A stretch of DNA of 21,659 nucleotides from contig LT649533.1 of NCBI GenBank assembly GCA_900128395.1, positions 1-21,659 of the forward strand, read 5' to 3'. Origin of the DNA: Stramenopiles sp. TOSAG23-2. Lineage: Eukaryota; Sar. Position 1 is the stretch's first letter. The number at the start of each line of letters is the position of its first letter. The notes beneath the pieces are model-generated. The model was given only the letters and a program-made list of their open reading frames with translations, had not been told where the DNA came from and ran no database searches. Position numbers and translations under genes: made by a program. This document shows positions 3,177-14,296 of this stretch, piece by piece.

Positions 3177-4973
3177 ATGGCATCATCATCACAACTAAAT
3201 TGTAAAAATATTATCGATCAATATTATGACAATTTGCAAGATGATCCTCAGCAAATTGAGGGAGTATTAAAATTTTTAAAAAGTGGTATTATTAGAATTA
3301 TTGAAAATAATGGTAACAACAGCGAAGGCGCAATAGAAGCTGTGTATAATTTATTAAAAACACAGTATGCGAAGGAACGTTCTATTTCATCATCCTCAAT
3401 TAATGATCGTGATAACATGACATATTGGTTTACAGATCGTCTTAAAGAAATAGGGATACGTGTAAATTGCCCAGTGGAATTATCTTGGAACATTGGTAAA
3501 GGAAGAATGCGTAAAATAATACCACACACATTAAAACCATCTAAACAATTATTAGTAACACAGAAAGAGATTGAACAGTTACGCAGTGCAAAATTGTTAG
3601 TGGTGTCGCAAGCAACCCCAGCTTTTGATAGGGCAAAGAGCACTAATAAATGTGCAATAAAAAAATGCCTTCACCGTTGCACCGTTGGTAGGTCAAACAT
3701 AATTGTAAGAATAGGTAGAATGATAAATCGAGCACGGTTTTCACATTCTTTTTTAAAATTTAAAAAAACACTTTTATTTTTGACAGAGAAAATTTGTATA
3801 GATGGGGAAAGTGTACTAATAACTGGAAAACCTGGTTCAGGAAAAACGTCTCTCTTGAGGGAACTGATTAAAATTACTTCAATAGTTGGTGAGAAGAAAA
3901 ATAGTATGGATGGATCAAACGGTCGTGTAGTAGTCGTTGACAAAAATGACGAAATATTAGGTGGTGTTGAGAATACACTTTTCCCAGCATGGCGTAGCGC
4001 AGATTCAGGGAGAGGTAAAAATACACCTGGTCTATTGAATGCCCTTCAAACTTGCACACCAATGTCAATCGTTGCAGATGAAATTGGCGACCAAGATGAA
4101 GCTTTAGATTTGAAAAATATTAGCGAACAGGGAATTTCAATTATAGCTACGAGCCACTTTAATTGTAGTACTGGAGAAAATGGAATATCAGCTTCTCAAG
4201 CGTTGGTGAAGAAAATATTAAATCACAATTCTCTATCTATGGTGGCAGGAGGAAAGATGTCTATGTTGTTAAGTGCTGAGGAAGCGATCGAGATGAACGT
4301 TAAAAAAAGATTTCATCAAAGTCGTGCGGAGCCCCCATTTCAATGGTGCTTATATATGAGAGATAGCGATCCAAGTCAATGGCCTGTACCCTTTGATGTA
4401 CGGAAAGAAGTTAAATTATATTTTGAAGATATAAATTCTAAAATGGAGAATTTCAATGTTGTGGATTATGAGGCTCCTAATAAGTCACGGAAACGACAAC
4501 GTAGCAGTAGCAATAATAGCAGTAATGGTAATTCTAGAGATAACAACCATCCACAACGACGAAATAGACGGAGAAAAAGACCAAAAAAACACCGCCAACA
4601 AAAGAGCGACATTTCTAATACCAAGTCCAACAGTAGTGGTAACTCAAAAGAATCAAGGATGGCTAAATGGTCGAAACTATTTCCAGAACTGAAAAAAACA
4701 CATCGACAACATAATAATAACAAGAATTCAAATAATACAAACAAAAATAATCCATGGTATAATAGTGTACATCCATGGAATAATAATTTTAATAATAATT
4801 TTAGCAACAATCCCATTTCTTCTTCTACTACTACTACTACTACTACTAAAAAAAATAATAATAATAATGTAAATTATAATTCGAGTCGTAATAATGATGG
4901 TGGTAAAAATAACAAGAATAATGATTACAAAGACAGTTTACCTACTGGTGTATATCTTGATGTTGGACGATGA
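3177..4973 (+). CDS. Ycf45/SpoIIIAA-type AAA ATPase with Asn-rich basic tail
   Basis: 598 residues. The frame opens upstream at a TTG, but the first ATG is at 3177 (atcATGGCA), which I take as the start. Residues about 80-430 follow the SpoIIIAA/Ycf45 family: a WFTDRLKEIGIRV segment, CLHRCTVGRSNIIVRIGR (equivalent of 'LHRIS..R...GLT.RVGR'), Walker A GKPGSGKTS at 217-225, Walker B-like SIVADEIGD near 300, and the C-terminal motif LNHNSLSMVAGG..SMLLSAEEAIEMNVKKR...PPFQWCLY. From about residue 432 the protein is low complexity, rich in Asn, Ser, Arg and Lys, with a Thr run. Family members in cyanobacteria and plastids are P-loop ATPases; the plant relative SPD1 acts in plastid development. No clear transit peptide is visible here. 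The exact role is unknown. Confidence 0.82.
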   Translation: MASSSQLNCKNIIDQYYDNLQDDPQQIEGVLKFLKSGIIRIIENNGNNSEGAIEAVYNLLKTQYAKERSISSSSINDRDNMTYWFTDRLKEIGIRVNCPVELSWNIGKGRMRKIIPHTLKPSKQLLVTQKEIEQLRSAKLLVVSQATPAFDRAKSTNKCAIKKCLHRCTVGRSNIIVRIGRMINRARFSHSFLKFKKTLLFLTEKICIDGESVLITGKPGSGKTSLLRELIKITSIVGEKKNSMDGSNGRVVVVDKNDEILGGVENTLFPAWRSADSGRGKNTPGLLNALQTCTPMSIVADEIGDQDEALDLKNISEQGISIIATSHFNCSTGENGISASQALVKKILNHNSLSMVAGGKMSMLLSAEEAIEMNVKKRFHQSRAEPPFQWCLYMRDSDPSQWPVPFDVRKEVKLYFEDINSKMENFNVVDYEAPNKSRKRQRSSSNNSSNGNSRDNNHPQRRNRRRKRPKKHRQQKSDISNTKSNSSGNSKESRMAKWSKLFPELKKTHRQHNNNKNSNNTNKNNPWYNSVHPWNNNFNNNFSNNPISSSTTTTTTTKKNNNNNVNYNSSRNNDGGKNNKNNDYKDSLPTGVYLDVGR

Positions 4974-5069
4974 TTCTCACAGTTCGAATATGTAGTAAAA
5001 TACTTCGTAATGCGTAAATTAAATTATACGCGTATGATATGTATAAGAGAGTGTATTAGTATAATTAAT

Positions 5070-5150
5070 GCAATAATTTATTTTTTAATTTACTCATGAT
5101 AATTCCTACTCTCCCAGATAGAATACAATAACTGAGACAATAATATCTAT
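5070..5150. repeat. Dispersed repeat, copy 1 (partner 10963-11040)
   Basis: About 80 bp resembling 10963-11040 with roughly three quarters identity by eye. Shared landmarks are aataatttattttt, a ttcactcat/tttactcat block, ataattccta and a terminal ctatct. It abuts the 3' end of the small secreted ORF. No transposase or target duplication is visible. Confidence 0.55.
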
Positions 5151-5386
5151 CTATCATTTAAATTGGCTAACATTACTGTAATTTTCTCGTCTGCTTGTGA
5201 ATATTGACTTGTTGAAAATGTAATTAAATTTGTTGCATCTATCGGCGTTGCACCCATTATCGACGTACGAGTCATAACATTTAATCCACTGCTCGAACCA
5301 ACTAAGTCACACCCAGGTTTATTTGGAAATGCTTGTACAGTACATACCACAATAAAAGTTAAAAATAAAAAAATTCTTAGCAACAT
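5147..5386 (-). CDS. Small secreted protein, possibly a truncated gene
   Basis: 79 residues from ATG 5386 to TAG. The first 19 residues (MLLRIFLFLTFIVVCTVQA) form a good signal peptide with a plausible A/FPN cleavage. The mature part is 60 residues with one Cys (PGCDLVGSSSG) and a Thr/Ser-rich beta-type pattern ending ITVMLANLNDR. The composition of the last part suggests a beta domain cut short, loosely like the first strands of a reeler/DOMON-type fold, but this is weak. The stop lies where a dispersed repeat begins, so the gene may be interrupted. It could also be a complete small secreted peptide. Confidence 0.5.
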   Translation of the reverse strand: MLLRIFLFLTFIVVCTVQAFPNKPGCDLVGSSSGLNVMTRTSIMGATPIDATNLITFSTSQYSQADEKITVMLANLNDR

Positions 5387-5620
5387 TATTCTCTTAAATA
5401 ATTGATTGTATTAATTTTTATATTAAAGTGTTCGTTAGTATTATTATATGATACATTTTTTATATATTTTATACATATATATATATATATATGTGCGTAT
5501 GGCAACTGCTAAAAACTAAAAACTGCTATGCATCATGCATCTAAAGCTTTAGCTTGTAGGCAACCGCTTAGCCAGTTAGCCAGTTAGCACCTTAAAAATA
5601 AATATAAATAGAGAAAAAAA

Positions 5621-5710
5621 ATGAATGGTTTGGAGGAAACCTACCTGAGCATAGCAGGTTACCACCATGATAGCGTGAATCTTCTAAGCTTTACCTACAA
5701 CACAAATTAG
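5621..5710 (+). CDS. Short ORF, possible first exon of the coiled-coil gene
   Basis: 29 codons, beginning MNGLEETYLSIAGYHHDS, preceded by an A-rich start context (gagaaaaaaaATG) typical of this window. A possible GT donor after codon 18 (AGC/GTGAAT) is in phase 0 and could splice to the coiled-coil segment at 5873, removing the inverted repeat as part of an intron. This is inference from phase and start context; the ORF may be chance. Confidence 0.3.
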   Translation: MNGLEETYLSIAGYHHDSVNLLSFTYNTN

Positions 5711-5848
5711 CATACAAATAAAATTAAGTGCTATTTATGCACTTATTACGAAATACTAGTAGGTACATAAATCACACAAATCGATGAAAACCTTAAATAT
5801 TTCGTCACCTATTTAGCATATAAATAGCACTTGATCTTATTTTTATGC
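5710..5848. repeat. Long imperfect inverted repeat (hairpin, MITE-like)
   Basis: The outer arms 5710-5740 and 5816-5848 are near-complementary over about 31 bases (gcatacaaataaaattaagt... against its reverse complement). Inner arms acgaaatactagtaggt (5748-5764) and accttaaatatttcgt (5790-5805) extend the pairing, leaving a loop of about 25 bases. There is no coding capacity. The structure fits a non-autonomous inverted-repeat element or a stable RNA/DNA hairpin. Confidence 0.65.
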
Positions 5849-5872
5849 TCCTCATCCTAACTTTTCCTATAG

Positions 5873-6145
5873 ATTCTGTACCAGGTCATTCAACAACGAC
5901 AGAATGAATTAAGAATAGCTGCAAGGAAAACAGCAGAAGAAAGTAAACGGAATATGGAAGCATATCATAATTTAAAATTAAAGCGCGTACAAGATAATCG
6001 TAAAATACGAGACAAAATACATGCAAAACGACGAAAAGGCACAAGGCGAGCAATGGCATTTCAAAATAAGAAAATTAATGCAGTGATACAATCTAGAAGA
6101 GCAGCTGTGACAAAAGAAAATGAAAAGCACAAGAAGCGACTTTGA
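5873..6145 (+). CDS. Coiled-coil protein fragment 1 (plus strand)
   Basis: An open segment follows a good acceptor-like sequence (ttttcctatag at 5862-5872) and reads to TGA at 6143-6145. It is strongly charged, with motifs such as QNELRIAARK, EESKRNMEAY, RKIRDKIHAKRRKGTRR and VTKENEKHKKRL, typical of a basic coiled coil, and has codon use like its neighbours. It has no N-terminal Met before residue 28 and stops abruptly, so it is a piece of a larger protein. Under an intron model it could end at the GT at 6107 (phase 0) and splice to 6262. Under a rearrangement model it ends at ACAAG 6129-6133. No family is recognised. Confidence 0.55.
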   Translation: MLYQVIQQRQNELRIAARKTAEESKRNMEAYHNLKLKRVQDNRKIRDKIHAKRRKGTRRAMAFQNKKINAVIQSRRAAVTKENEKHKKRL

Positions 6146-6225
6146 TATTTCTAATTGGGATAAAATTAAAGCATTTTCCTCGATAATGGCATCACGTTGT
6201 TCTTTTGTCATCGTATTTGGATTAT

Positions 6226-6256
<31 letters not shown>

Positions 6257-6260
6257 ATTA
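6140..6260 (-). CDS. Coiled-coil fragment 2 (minus strand) with Asn run
   Basis: Reading down from 6260 on the minus strand there is an Asn run (AAT repeats), then NPNTM and an acidic helix TKEQRDAIIEENALILSQLEIS, ending near 6140 where the frame turns hydrophobic. Codon use (GAA, CAA, TTA, AAT, ACA) matches real genes here. No AG acceptor exists between the upstream in-frame stop and the segment, so it is not an ordinary internal exon; it could be a first exon at ATG 6211. It lies between the two plus-strand coil fragments. The plus strand is also partly open here in another frame, so certainty is limited. Confidence 0.4.
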
Positions 6261-6261
6261 G

Positions 6262-6620
6262 CATTTCCATACGAGCGATAACAGTGGAGATCATAGCAAC
6301 AAGGAGGTCAAGCATGTTTTCTTTCATAACACCAAGCTTCAAGCACATGCAACACGTAGGTTTTCTGCTGCTGAAAATAAACGTTTAAAAGGCCGGGTCG
6401 AGCATTTACAACGAAAAGAAGCGAAAATGAAGAAAGAAATATATGATTATTATACGCATATGGAAAAACGAATTAAAATTTTAAGAGATCAAAAACGATT
6501 GCGTCAAGAATTGAATCGTGCAAGGGCAGATACCGCAAAACGAAATACTGAATTAAATAATGCTGCTCGAAATATACATAGAAATTTAGATGCAGCAAAA
6601 GAATGCAAACAATTCACATA
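6262..6620 (+). CDS. Coiled-coil protein fragment 3 (plus strand)
   Basis: Open from a TAG at 6259-6261 with coil-like sequence: NTKLQAHATRRFSAAENKR, VEHLQRKEAKMKKEIYDYY, EKRIKILRDQKRLRQELNRA and RNIHRNLDAAKE. After about residue 114 (AAKECKQF) it passes into a hydrophobic Ile-rich stretch that is plainly not the same protein. The real coding end is therefore near 6603-6620. Possible acceptors are the TAG at 6261 or CAAG at 6303. Like fragment 1, it has no proper start or stop of its own. No family is recognised. Confidence 0.55.
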
Positions 6621-7063
6621 TGAATTGTTCAATTTTATCCATGGATCCTGTTTTCCCACTACTATTATCATCATCATCATTATTATGATTTTTTGTCTTA
6701 TTATTTTTATTATTTACAATTTGTGTTTGCAAATCAAACATCAATCTGTTTAACAATATCATACGATTTTCAGTAGTAAGATTTTTAACAATTTCATCTG
6801 TATTATTCATATTTTTATTATTATTATTACCAATATTATTACTATTATTAGTACTATCATCTTCCCGATTACTATTATTTAAAATATCTTCATGTATTGT
6901 CGATTCAATAATTTTTCCAATAGATAGCACTTAAATTAGATGCCATTGTTGATTGTAAACCAGACGTTTGTGGTCTACCCGTATTCAATGTTGTAGATCC
7001 CGCTATTGAAGTTGTTTTCACACCACTACGATGTCCAATTGAAGCATTTGGTGTATTTGACAT
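6586..7063 (-). CDS. N-terminal part of an Asn-rich, probably coiled-coil protein (frame-broken)
   Basis: It starts at ATG 7063 with MSNTPNASIGHRSGVKTTS and a Gly/Thr/Ser-rich head (GRPQTSGLQSTMASN), then needs a +1 change of frame between about 6949 and 6896. It continues with STIHEDILNNSN, several Asn-rich runs, TTENRMILLNRLMFDLQTQ, and ends near SMDKIEQFICELF before a TAA at 6586-6588. The head resembles disordered N-termini of ciliary coil proteins, but that is only an impression. An in-phase ACAAT repeat at 6945-6949 and 6896-6900 brackets 49 nt whose removal would restore one frame. Its 3' end overlaps fragment 3 tail to tail. Confidence 0.5.
6609..6630. repeat. Perfect 9-bp inverted repeat at the junction of convergent fragments
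   Basis: AACAATTCA and TGAATTGTT flank a 4-base centre, placed where the plus-strand coil fragment and the minus-strand Asn-rich fragment meet. It is suggestive of a rearrangement breakpoint, or chance in AT-rich DNA. Confidence 0.5.
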
Positions 7064-7474
7064 CGAATCTCTGCAAACTAATACTCTGCAAGCATTTGAG
7101 TAGGTTTCTATCCTTCCCTGCGTTCTCGTTGAACGTGTTGGACGTCGGGCTCATTCGAAAAACATAAAATTAATATTATAAAAAATGTATACCAGGTATA
7201 CACACAGCACACATATTTTTTATGATACCATATTTTTAAAAAAAATAATATATTTTTTTAAAAGTTTTTAAAAATTTTATAAGTCGTAATAAAACAAAAA
7301 TAAATTACGATCGTAAATATAATACGTATATATATTAGAGGGGAAACTTTTTTTATTTAACACAGAGAGACGAAATTACATATCATGATAGGATTCCCTC
7401 CTATCTCGTATATTTTATGCATTAAAATATCAAATGTACAGAGTTGTTGCTTTAATTACGGTGTGTTAAATAAT
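7064..7474. other. Gap with dispersed repeat and AT-rich tract
   Basis: It contains dispersed repeat copy 1 (7069-7163), then A/T-rich sequence with (T)n and (A)n blocks downstream of the CAP-Gly/WD40 stop. No gene is visible. Confidence 0.5.
7069..7163. repeat. GC-richer dispersed repeat, copy 1 (partner 14020-14114)
   Basis: About 95 bp matching 14020-14114 in the same orientation at roughly 80% or more by eye. Conserved blocks are ctctgcaaac, gtttctatccttcc, ctcgttgaacgtg and tggacgtcggg. It starts six bases upstream of the ATG at 7063. It is GC-richer than its surroundings. It contains no clear ORF, tRNA or terminal repeat, so it could be a mobile-element remnant, an ncRNA or a shared regulatory module. 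Confidence 0.75.
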
Positions 7475-9488
7475 TTAAAATTCATACACTAAAGCATTAC
7501 CATCATCACCAGCAGCTATCATTTTATTGCCAGTACCAGCAATACATCGAACTGCACCTTGATTAGCACCTAAACCATATAATAATTTACCATTGGTCAT
7601 ATCATGTACTAATAAGATTCCATCACCACCACCACTAAGTAAACAATCACCACAAGACGACATGGTATAGATAAAATCTTTATGATGCTCCATAGTTGTA
7701 AATGGTTGGAAATTTTTTCGTGGATCCAATAAATGTATTTTCGAATCTGCCCCGCATGTAGCTACGAAAGACCCATTGTTGAAATTGATTGGATTTGGAC
7801 AAACTATATCGTTGACTGCACCACCACGATGCAATGGTAATTTAAATATTGGCTTGTTGATACGATTCGCATCCCATACTTGCACAATGCCATCTTGAGC
7901 ACCTGTTAAACAAATTGCATCATTCGCAGATATCCATTCCACTGCGGTTATATGGCCTTTATGTCCTTTCAATATCCGCGCATCTGATCCAACACCTAAA
8001 TCCCAAACCACTGCCATACCATCCCTTGCACCTGATAGCAAATATCCATTCCCATTACCATCACAATCAATAGTGGACCATTCCATGCACATGATCGGAG
8101 CTTGATGCCCCATTAAACATGCAGCTTCCCTGCCATTGCCACTTAAATTCCAAACACGTATGCTTTTATCATAACTACCACTTAAAGCATATTTACCATC
8201 GTTACTAGCCACTATACATGAAACTGAATGCGAATGTCCAGTTAAATCATTGCAACGCGAACCTGCTTTATTCCATAAGCATATTTTACTATCCATACCA
8301 CCAGATAATATCCGACCATCTGGTATATACGTAACACAAGTGACCCATTCAGAATGGCCAAATTTTTTCGTATATAAATTTCTATTCATTTTACATGTTT
8401 CAATATTAAATTCTTTCAAACCATGATCAGCACTACCAATTACACATGACTTCCCGAAAAGACTCATACAAAGTATATTACGATCAGACGCATCAAATAA
8501 ATTCCCAGCAGGGTTTGTCGGGCCACGCTTCCAACCTTGTACCATATGCTTACTAGTAACATCATAAGTGTGACGAAACCCTAATCCTATTTGTCTAGTA
8601 GAACCACTACGACTACGGCGTTGTACTATTTGTTGTTGTTGTTTATTATTATCATTATTATTATTATTATCAGATGTTTTATAGCCATATCCTTGATTAT
8701 TGTTATTATTATTATTATTATTACTATTATTATATTCCAAACTCGTTTTTTCACCGCCATGGGCAAGACGTAATTCCTCAAATCCCTTATCAAAATCATT
8801 CATATAAGCATCATTTAATTCATGCGAACGCGCTTGAGAAAATTTCGAAGGTCCGTTTTGTTCATTATTAACACGTGAAATCACTTGTGTCACAGCTTTT
8901 GGTCGGACAAATATACCATGTCTATCAGGACATTTAAAATATCCTTTTGTCGTATATCATATAAAATGTTAGTATACGTCAATAGAATAATCATAGAATT
9001 CAATAATATTTGTATATATACATATATATGTGTGTGTATACATAAATATAGTTATAAAATTTTTATTAGATACATGTTATCAAAAGTAGTATTGTTAACT
9101 AGGAAGTGTGTGTGTATGTGTGTGTGATGTATAAATTATATATATAAAGCATCAGAAAGAGCTACAATGTCTCCATTGGCTTCCAGAATCTTCTCCGCAT
9201 TATGAAAATTCGGATGTCCCTATCTGAGGTGATCATCATTTGCTTTTTGATATATAAAATATACATTTATTTATATAGTGGATAAAATATATGGTATAAG
9301 TTAAAAGGAAAACATATTGACTTACCTCTTCCATCACTTGTTCCATGTGGTGCTCGTAACTCCACTCCTAAAAATTCCCCATCACCTTTGCCAGTTAATG
9401 GTCCTATATATCGTATTGTTCCTCTATAAGTTGTTCCGCTCCGACCTTTAAATGCAACTCTATCACCAGGTGAAAATGAATTCGACAT
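7475..9488 (-). CDS. CAP-Gly and WD40-repeat fusion protein, two exons
   Basis: Spliced CDS: exon 1 9326-9488, intron 8944-9325, exon 2 7475-8943, giving 543 residues. Exon 1 encodes SPGDRVAFKG..GTIRYIGPL.GKGDGEFLGVEL and GTSDGR. It ends in a strong donor (G/GTAAGTCAA). Exon 2 begins after AAAAG and restores the domain: GYFKCPDRHGIFVRP. Together these form one CAP-Gly domain (residues about 5-70) with the GKNDG-like motif changed to GTSDG. An Asn/Gln-rich linker follows, then seven or eight WD40 blades (about 209-543), with GH...WD units such as SGGMDSKICLWN and TGAQDGIVQVWD. CAP-Gly domains bind the EEY/F tails of tubulin and EB proteins, so a microtubule-linked scaffold is likely. Divergent from the flavoprotein gene. 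Confidence 0.85.
8944..9325 (-). other. Intron (382 nt) in the CAP-Gly/WD40 gene
   Basis: It has a canonical GTAAGT donor and an AG acceptor (caaaag). Splicing is phase 1 and rejoins a split CAP-Gly domain exactly, which is the main proof. It contains (TG)n/(TA)n tracts and a 27-codon same-strand open segment at 9136-9219. Confidence 0.85.
9136..9219 (-). other. Coding-like segment inside the intron
   Basis: 27 codons (GHPNFHNAEKILEANGDIVA then LSDALYI) ending in TAA. It is directly preceded by an in-frame TAG that could act as an acceptor. The AEKILEANGDIV pattern looks like helices 2-3 of a UBA-type fold. It is out of phase with exon 1 through the known donor. It may be an alternative terminal exon of something, a relic or chance. 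Confidence 0.25.
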
Positions 9489-10023: not shown

Positions 10024-10758
10024 ATGAAAAAGCCAATAATACCATCAATGGATATTATTGGAAATAAAATTATAGCAGTTGCAAAGAAAGATGGATTAAA
10101 AAATGCATTTGAAAATATTTATACATATATGATTGACGGTACCAAATCATCTAGAAAACCGTTTCATTATTGTACGTTAGCAACTATTGAAAATAATATT
10201 CCACAACAAAGGACAATGGTATCGCAAAAAGTTATTAATGATAAAAACAATGTATATAAGAAAATTCGGTTTCATGCTGATAGTAGATCTCCAAAAATGT
10301 TACATATTGATAATGAGAAAATAAATCCAAAATTTGCTTCATGTATATTTTATGAACCGAAACATAAAATTCAAATTAGAATGATTGGCTTGATAAATAA
10401 AGCTGCTGTGATAGACGTCCAGGATACATGGGAAAATGATATGACCGATCTGTCGAAAAGATGCTATTTCAATCCATTACCACCTTCATCGAGAATAAGC
10501 AGTTTTGATGATTTCAAAATTAACCATGAAAAAATGATTCATAATAGTGGTTCCAATGCAAATCTTTCTTCCTCTTTTGATATTATTGAATTTAATATTC
10601 ACTCAATTGAATTTTTAGTACTTGGTATTCACGGTCACATTCGTGCACGACAATATATTATTGATAATGATGATGAAAATGTTGATCATCATGATGTACA
10701 TCATATCAATTATTATAAAGAAGGATTATATTTATCTGAAGATTGGTTGAGTCCTTAG
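10024..10758 (+). CDS. Pyridoxamine 5'-phosphate oxidase-like FMN-binding protein (Alr4036 type)
   Basis: 244 residues from the ATG at 10024 (aaataATGAAAAAG) to TAG. The central part follows the Alr4036-type flavin-binding split barrel: FHYCTLATIE...PQQRTMVSQ, then KIRFHADSRSPKMLHI, NPKFASCIFYEPKHKIQIRMIGLI, and DTWENDMTDLSKRCYFNPLPPSS. This order (strand with R.MV, H.D.RS.K, FY..K.QIR) is the FMN-binding pattern of the family. Family members are PNPOx-like oxidoreductases of mostly unknown substrate and are not proven pyridoxine oxidases. The C-terminus has HIRARQY and a His/Asp-rich stretch before YYKEGLYLSEDWLSP. Length is normal. Probably cytosolic. Confidence 0.8.
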   Translation: MKKPIIPSMDIIGNKIIAVAKKDGLKNAFENIYTYMIDGTKSSRKPFHYCTLATIENNIPQQRTMVSQKVINDKNNVYKKIRFHADSRSPKMLHIDNEKINPKFASCIFYEPKHKIQIRMIGLINKAAVIDVQDTWENDMTDLSKRCYFNPLPPSSRISSFDDFKINHEKMIHNSGSNANLSSSFDIIEFNIHSIEFLVLGIHGHIRARQYIIDNDDENVDHHDVHHINYYKEGLYLSEDWLSP

Positions 10759-13877: not shown

Positions 13878-14296
13878 ATATTCATTTATAATATAATGAT
13901 GGTTAAAATCTAAGTTATAATAATTTTACACTTTCCCGTGTTAAGTACGAAGCAATACTCAATCGCAAGAATAATATTCTATCCTATATACTAGATGATA
14001 TAGTAAAGCTCTAATGCACCTCTGCAAACCAATAATACTCTACAAGCACGAGTATGTTTCTATCCTTCCGTGCGCACTCGTTGAACGTGCTGGACGTCGG
14101 GTTCATTCAAAAACGGTGAGGTTGTCGAAGTGAAAGATTATGTTGTGAACAACAAGCGTAATGGTAATATACTTTGATTTTTTTTTAAAAAATAGATTCT
14201 ACGGTTCGTACACGAATAATTACGAATCGTACTTCGTATATTTTATAATATTTAATTTTCCATTAATACGAATTCGTATAAAAAAATGTACATAAA
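13878..14296. other. Convergent 3' intergenic region with repeat
   Basis: Tail-to-tail gap between the JmjC and CoaB-like genes. It holds one arm of a 21-nt dispersed inverted repeat (13896-13916) and the second copy of the GC-richer repeat (14020-14114). No gene is seen. Confidence 0.5.
14020..14114. repeat. GC-richer dispersed repeat, copy 2 (partner 7069-7163)
   Basis: About 95 bp in the same orientation as 7069-7163. Differences are mostly single-base, with a few small indels. Unlike copy 1, it does not lie next to a start codon. Confidence 0.75.

Follow-up and report, generated by a model that had tools for sequence, protein, structure and literature searches.

Permuted and inverted pieces of one gene in a draft protist genome resemble a broken copy or an artefact more than a reassembled gene

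The window analysed here is the whole 21,659-bp contig C300 (LT649533.1) of a 17.45-Mb, 793-contig assembly, G000 (GCA_900128395.1). Its long ORFs are mostly intact and encode an MFS transporter, a SpoIIIAA-like ATPase, a WD40 protein, a JmjC/cupin protein, a DFP-domain (phosphopantothenoylcysteine synthetase-like) protein, a coiled-coil protein and a dual-specificity phosphatase. The SpoIIIAA-like ATPase gene (3177-4973, plus strand) is apparently eukaryotic nuclear and carries a long Asn-rich tail. On the minus strand (9488-7475), a CAP-Gly ORF and the WD40 ORF apparently form a single gene split by a GTAAGT intron, a candidate that sits in a contig otherwise nearly intronless. The stop codons of 71 non-overlapping ORFs of at least 200 aa (TAA 43, TGA 18, TAG 10) fit the standard code, which is also used by some ciliates, and the dense, mostly uninterrupted genes do not look like those of a ciliate germline genome.

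Five coding-like segments, F1, F2, F3, A2 and A1, occupy both strands of one part of the window (Table 1). Their limits are nearly equal under two coding scores, a codon model trained on the window's own genes and a six-base model trained on the long ORFs of an additional 200 kb plus the window, and neither F1 nor F3 contains a stop. The initial annotation had read four such segments on alternating strands. The alternation stands, but the count does not, as the supposed single segment from 7063 to 6586 on the minus strand consists of two ORFs: the frame that opens at 7063 runs to a stop at 6908, and the stretch 6930-6589 is read in another frame (A1 and A2, respectively). An intron linking the two, a 49-nt GT-AG reading made by eye, was rejected because the conserved RPQTS would be lost. 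A2 has no clear counterpart in the eight relatives described below (best blastp E 0.059, filter off), and a search of its own genome returned A2 itself and two weak matches only (E 0.007 and 0.03); it accounts for 300 coding-like bases.

Repeats lie on both sides of the pieces. Stretches similar to the MITE-like element on the left occur in contigs C259 and C189, and an 18-nt stretch resembling its end is found at 6920-6937, on the A1/A2 border. The dispersed repeat of about 93 nt on the right matches the genome at 43 or more other places, over all or part of its length, one of them within the window, and its copies are sometimes near each other (contigs C112, C207 and C18); Rfam gave no match in window positions 5000-7500, the copy at 7069 included. 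A perfect hairpin between F3 and A2 was considered as a mark of end joining and dropped; it carries no weight because hairpins with arms of at least 9 bp occur at seven distinct places in the window, this one among them.

Table 1. Segments, shared bases and repeats around the jumbled gene. Border bases are those at the located native joins, with the slash marking the break.
Feature	Position	Strand	Codon-model limits	Six-base-model limits	Border bases	Description	Place on relatives
F1	5894..6142	+	5891-6127	5888-6124	TTCAA/CAACGA	Fourth in protein order; QRQNELRIAARK...KHKKRL	P0002 297-380; P0004 60-142
F2	6140..6265	-	6149-6268	6140-6268	AAAG/TCGC	First in protein order; ...EENALILSQLEISK	P0002 120-152; P0003 110-152
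F3	6271..6603	+	6268-6612	6277-6612	GAA/TGC	Third in protein order; TSDNSGDHSNKEVKHVFFHNTKLQ...NLDAAKE	P0002 about 187-300
A2	6589..6930	-	6625-6924	6625-6924		Asn-rich coding-like ORF, frame differs from A1	
A1	6938..7069	-	6926-7150	6926-7069	AGAT/TCGATG	Second in protein order; SMSNTPNASIGHRS...RPQTSGLQSTMAS	P0002 150-185
F1/F2 inverted-fusion overlap	6137..6142	both				CGACTT/AAGTCG, six bases serving F1 (+) and F2 (-)	
13-nt copy	6207-6195	-				CAAAAGAACAACG, inside F2; equals the inferred native F3-F1 junction sequence	
Perfect hairpin	6608..6629					AACAATTCA-CATA-TGAATTGTT; 9-bp arms, 4-nt loop; between F3 end and A2 end	
MITE-like element	5706..5855					Directly left of F1; 30-nt inverted repeats, 90% complementary	
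Dispersed repeat, about 93 nt	7069..7161					Abuts A1 start; second window copy at 14020-14113	

A search with the joined pieces gave seven related proteins, a search with P0003 added P0008, and a third search, for further pieces from the same species, returned P0004 again and nothing else. P0002 (516 aa), P0003 (515), P0005 (524) and P0008 (608) are full-length, while P0004 (218 aa), P0006 and P0007 are partial. P0004, whose cluster has 10 members, derives from an 809-nt ENA contig that may be RNA or DNA; P0001 (g8774.t1, EukProt), to judge from its name, is an automatic gene model. When P0001-P0007 were searched against the window by tblastn, all four pieces F2, A1, F3 and F1 fell on P0002. 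The E values are 7e-53 for F3, 2e-32 (P0002) and 9e-50 (P0004) for F1, 8e-5 for F2 (P0003) and 2e-4 for A1, and the homology of F3 and F1 to the relatives is, on these alignments, far beyond chance. Judged by homology, the four conserved segments are thus parts of one protein of about 515 residues, predicted to be coiled-coil-like and with no assigned function, of which the window holds the middle, about 260 residues. The Asn-rich upstream part of F2 is without conservation. P0002, P0003, P0005 and P0008 matched no Pfam family, the alignment of these four with P0004 matched no chain in the PDB, and no relative of the protein was found in virus contigs. Two matches below the cut-off were set aside, namely F3 to GAS8/DRC4 (Pfam E 0.0033; the GAS family gave eight weak matches in the genome, none above cut-off) and the pieces joined in the initially proposed order to BRCT (E 0.00047).

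The positions of the pieces on P0002 therefore establish the native order as F2(-)-A1(-)-F3(+)-F1(+), set against F1(+), F2(-), F3(+), A1(-) in the window. The permutation that the initial annotation had described, with two pieces inverted and one placed between two others, is borne out by this homology, and a protein search with the translations, as it had suggested, yields one homolog matched by the pieces. Its claim that the segments form one protein holds for the four conserved pieces, while A2 has no clear counterpart, and its order, A-F1-F3-F2, is contradicted by P0002 and P0003. The short words that it took for pointers, TGAATT, ACAAG and CAAAAGAA, are indeed present in the DNA where it had placed them, but none lies where the two pieces assigned to it are joined; the end of CAAAAGAA does coincide with the true end of F3, but what follows there is F1 and not, as a pointer between F3 and F2 would have it, F2.

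F3 is continuous with F1 in all seven of the aligned proteins P0002-P0008. P0004 reads DAAKE and then QRQNEL, unbroken across this join, and is identical to the window over the last 59 residues of F3 (59/59) and over 83 of 83 residues of F1 (142/142 in total), from which we infer that it comes from the same species. At the DNA level, F3 ends in ...AAAAGAA (DAAKE) and F1 starts with CAACGA (QRQN; first codon CAA), giving an overlap of 2 nt (AA), for which the chance probability of at least 2 is 0.19. F2 ends in ...AAAG-TCG and A1 starts with TCG-ATG, an overlap of 3 nt (TCG; chance probability of at least 3, 0.07); this join was judged by homology to P0002 and P0003, from other species, because no same-species sequence spans it. 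The native join of A1 to F3 falls in a variable stretch with no exact position, so two of the three native joins are located, and neither of these has GT-AG borders (Table 1). The four pieces tile one gene, permuted and inverted, with F2-A1 and F3-F1 fitting within a codon. Two pairs of break points coincide within 3 nt, which has a probability of about 8e-5 if the ends are independent. From this close fit at two native joins it follows that the DNA was probably moved, not copied, and three inversions suffice to convert F2-A1-F3-F1 into F1, -F2, F3, -A1.

Among the fusions in the window, that of F1 to F2 is the single one scored, and its overlap of six bases assumes the native F2-A1 join AAG-TCG-ATG. 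Short shared bases at a fusion are compatible with end joining, and the six bases here fit end joining or an amplification chimera equally. The inferred native F3-F1 junction sequence also recurs as a 13-nt copy inside F2. A match of at least 13 nt across a given point arose in 14 of 3000 random coding draws, and the copy may reflect a codon run (KEQR) that is common in coiled coils or be a vestige of the mechanism.

P0001 supplies a second observation of part of the arrangement. It consists of the SpoIIIAA-like gene, 11 residues of the intergenic stretch 4998-5030, F1, F3 and 8 residues past the F3 break; F2 is absent from this shared arrangement. Relative to the window, 10 of 352 residues differ in the SpoIIIAA-like part and none of 159 in the F1 and F3 stretches (the 8 residues past the break included), which under equal rates has a probability of 0.024. 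All 10 differences lie before SpoIIIAA residue 292, and the 231 compared residues that follow, 19 of which are non-coding, are free of differences; the probability of such a run is 0.003, with a cut point picked after the data were seen. The assembly behind P0001 and G000 probably share one haplotype here, and the two may share raw data and so not be independent. For these reasons P0001 is weaker support than it looks, and an argument for selection drawn from it is weakened in turn because the stretch of identity extends to non-coding bases and starts within the SpoIIIAA-like gene.

The remainder of the protein was not found. Searches of the 17.45-Mb assembly recovered neither residues 1-119 nor residues 381-516 of the relatives, nor did a search of the same genome recover the last 76 residues of P0004; these searches had no positive control, and the assembly may be incomplete. 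A contiguous version of the gene, which the initial annotation had proposed to look for in the same genome, did not appear either, as no intact F3-F1 copy was found in the assembly. Within the window, ungapped scoring of the ends gave nothing accepted as a piece, against a thin control of one shuffle or none. The N-terminus of P0002 scored at best 40, compared with 42 for its one shuffle. The C-terminus of P0004 scored 39 inside F3, taken as coiled-coil likeness, and then 35, compared with 33 for its one shuffle, and the C-terminus of P0002, for which no shuffle was made, scored 45 inside F3 and then 40 inside the ORF at 10024-10758.

Further scrambled genes were sought at three scales. Segmentation of 200 kb of contigs C1-C3 revealed ordinary genes and no second scrambled cluster. 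A strand-switch sample of 290,952 bases (the window, C1-C3, loci L003-L019 without L015, and L044-L051, in which L008 and L009 overlap each other, as do L017 and L018) contained 165 segments; the strand switches 90 times, in 12 cases within 60 nt. At three of the switches a proper end is missing in both segments, two at this locus and one in L044, a locus included because its kinase was cut short. Across the whole genome, a family survey gave 200 matches (137 kinase, 42 kinesin, 14 AMP-binding and 7 myosin), with 124 of 132 kinase, 40 of 40 kinesin, 14 of 16 AMP-binding and 8 of 8 myosin candidates scored; by a reading of the tables, none of the 200 is a domain with complementary parts on both strands. 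The closest opposite-strand neighbours, kinases on C63, kinesins on C37 and kinases 1.3 kb apart on C424, read as separate or partial copies with overlapping domain parts.

Eight irregular kinase places, a subset, were examined as well. L047 and L049 hold exact tandem copies of about 100 nt, and in our own reading L044, L050 and L045 hold genes fused tail to tail or head to head and L046 a kinase without its first lobe. The survey and these places together therefore indicate a genome, or an assembly, rich in local rearrangements and poor in scrambled genes. Six exact tandem copies of 100-139 nt, artefact or real, were noted in all the stretches compared (L047, 879-1086; L049, 479-696, 1127-1352 and 1743-1947; C3, 35800-35999 and 36560-36837); none is a multiple of three in length, and several lie in gene pieces. 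L051 (C63:8900-11100) contains at 468-1672 an imperfect palindrome of about 1.2 kb (89% over 1234 nt) that includes two kinase copies facing each other, one of them partial. L044 (C642) and L050 (C486) apparently carry the same two converging genes, in versions 94% alike, cut mid-way at different points. Identical match scores occur on the contig pairs C18/C644, C163/C209, C189/C259 and C216/C583, with identical coordinates as well in the first three, and C118 has a nearly identical inverted pair of kinesins at 6491 and 26756.

The jumbled pieces, though of real homology, resemble a broken copy or an artefact more than a reassembled gene. Our leading interpretation, at a probability of about 0.5, is a recent, non-functional broken copy or allele that arose by breakage and end joining, with the intact gene elsewhere in the species. 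The gene would have been cut into F2, A1, F3 and F1 by physical breakage and re-joined, either three inversions or one local shattering producing the order, and end joining at short homologies would have made a recent non-functional allele or copy; the intact gene would be retained elsewhere in the species, with an intact copy in the same cells. A young end-joined copy explains why the pieces tile closely, why the overlaps are short and why the ends are missing, the overlap at the F1/F2 fusion is compatible with it, and the genome contains another partial inverted gene copy, in that case diverged (L051). Set against this, amino acid changes are absent relative to both P0004 (142 residues) and P0001 (159 residues), and the same assembly yielded no intact copy. 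Since the pieces are without decay, a broken copy must be young or kept by conversion, or else the gene is not broken. The main rival, which we hold to be rather unlikely, is an amplification or assembly artefact in a draft genome made perhaps from amplified single cells, through phi29 template switching or misjoined short contigs. In PMC4595205, amplification chimeras have inverted joins, an overlap peak of 6 nt and a distance peak of 250-300 nt, so that the 6-nt overlap and inverted joins seen here, typical of such chimeras too, count for an artefact and against a broken copy. The six exact tandem copies, the duplicated contigs, the kinase genes apparently fused to other genes or without a lobe (L044, L045 and L046), the unfound protein ends and the identity of P0001 through non-coding bases, perhaps from shared raw data, all point the same way. 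An artefact would account for the missing ends and the absent decay, but not for the tiling: copying gives no cause for the coinciding pairs of break points, the overlapping ends expected of mis-ordered graph contigs would seem to be absent, and P0001 has F1 then F3 with the same 8 residues past the break and the same SpoIIIAA-like neighbour, in which 10 of 352 residues differ.

A functional scrambled gene, in which F2-A1-F3-F1 and ends located elsewhere would be united by programmed DNA rearrangement, as in ciliates, or by RNA joining, is improbable. Close tiling in a permuted and inverted order and undecayed pieces would follow from it, none of the 10 differences of P0001 falls in the 159 F1 and F3 residues, a contiguous form exists in P0004 (as RNA or DNA), and the overlaps, at 2 and 3 nt, fall inside the range of 2-20 bp given for canonical ciliate pointers in PMC9797194. 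Nevertheless, a shared haplotype explains the identity of P0001 as well as selection does, no other case emerged from the 200 domain matches or the 200-kb survey, and GT-AG borders are lacking at both located joins. Programmed joining would thus explain the tiling and the absent decay, but not the rarity or overlaps no longer than chance allows. The scrambled germline gene with pointers envisaged by the initial annotation is not supported: the overlaps at the true joins do not exceed chance, the sample shows no second case and searches of the assembly did not turn up the protein ends. These facts are explained by a broken copy or an artefact as well. Capture of gene fragments by templated insertion, in which the pieces would have been copied here from an intact gene with repeats at their edges, has little to recommend it: transposon-like sequences (the MITE-like element and the dispersed repeat) do lie on both flanks and the 13-nt junction copy in F2 could be templated, but copied pieces should overlap or leave gaps, and two of the joins fit closely. 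A pair of ordinary genes that contain introns and overlap on opposite strands, their segments unrelated, would agree with the P0001 gene model, in which the SpoIIIAA-like gene is followed by F1 and F3 joined as they lie in the genome; this reading is already contradicted by the placement of all four pieces on one relative in another order, and we give it almost no credence.

The meaning of the locus depends on whether the pieces are still used. That a nuclear gene still functions in permuted and inverted pieces, which the cell of an intron-poor and probably non-ciliate protist rejoins in DNA or RNA without long pointers or splice sites, is a proposition we doubt strongly. If true, it would place gene unscrambling outside ciliates, at single loci, where it is not known; among the matches listed in a full-text literature search for gene scrambling and both-strand splicing, none by title concerned scrambled nuclear genes outside ciliates. 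If the pieces are unused, the locus is a clean case of a gene that inversions have broken at matching points and that has yet to decay, and a warning that a draft genome can yield a convincing "scrambled gene".

Several known systems resemble parts of this arrangement. Nuclear trans-splicing of the mod(mdg4) type uses exons of both strands, whereas the two joins examined here have no GT-AG borders. In spirotrich ciliates (Oxytricha, Tetmemena and Euplotes woodruffi), as here, the pieces of one gene are permuted and lie on both strands, with a contiguous form elsewhere; here, however, the overlaps are not beyond chance length, no second case appears in the sample, the ends were not found and the remainder of the contig carries intact genes. 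Inverted chimeras of MDA share the inverted joins, the 6-nt overlap at the one scored fusion and pieces of about 120-330 nt, and the F1/F2 fusion conforms to their overlaps of mostly 5-8 nt within a few hundred nucleotides; they differ in that the break points here coincide pairwise and a second assembly shows some of the same arrangement. A known route to pseudogenes is local shattering, or serial inversion, followed by end joining. Although the pieces here are undecayed and no intact copy was found in the assembly, the locus shares with this route conservative reshuffling, short overlap and the loss of ends.
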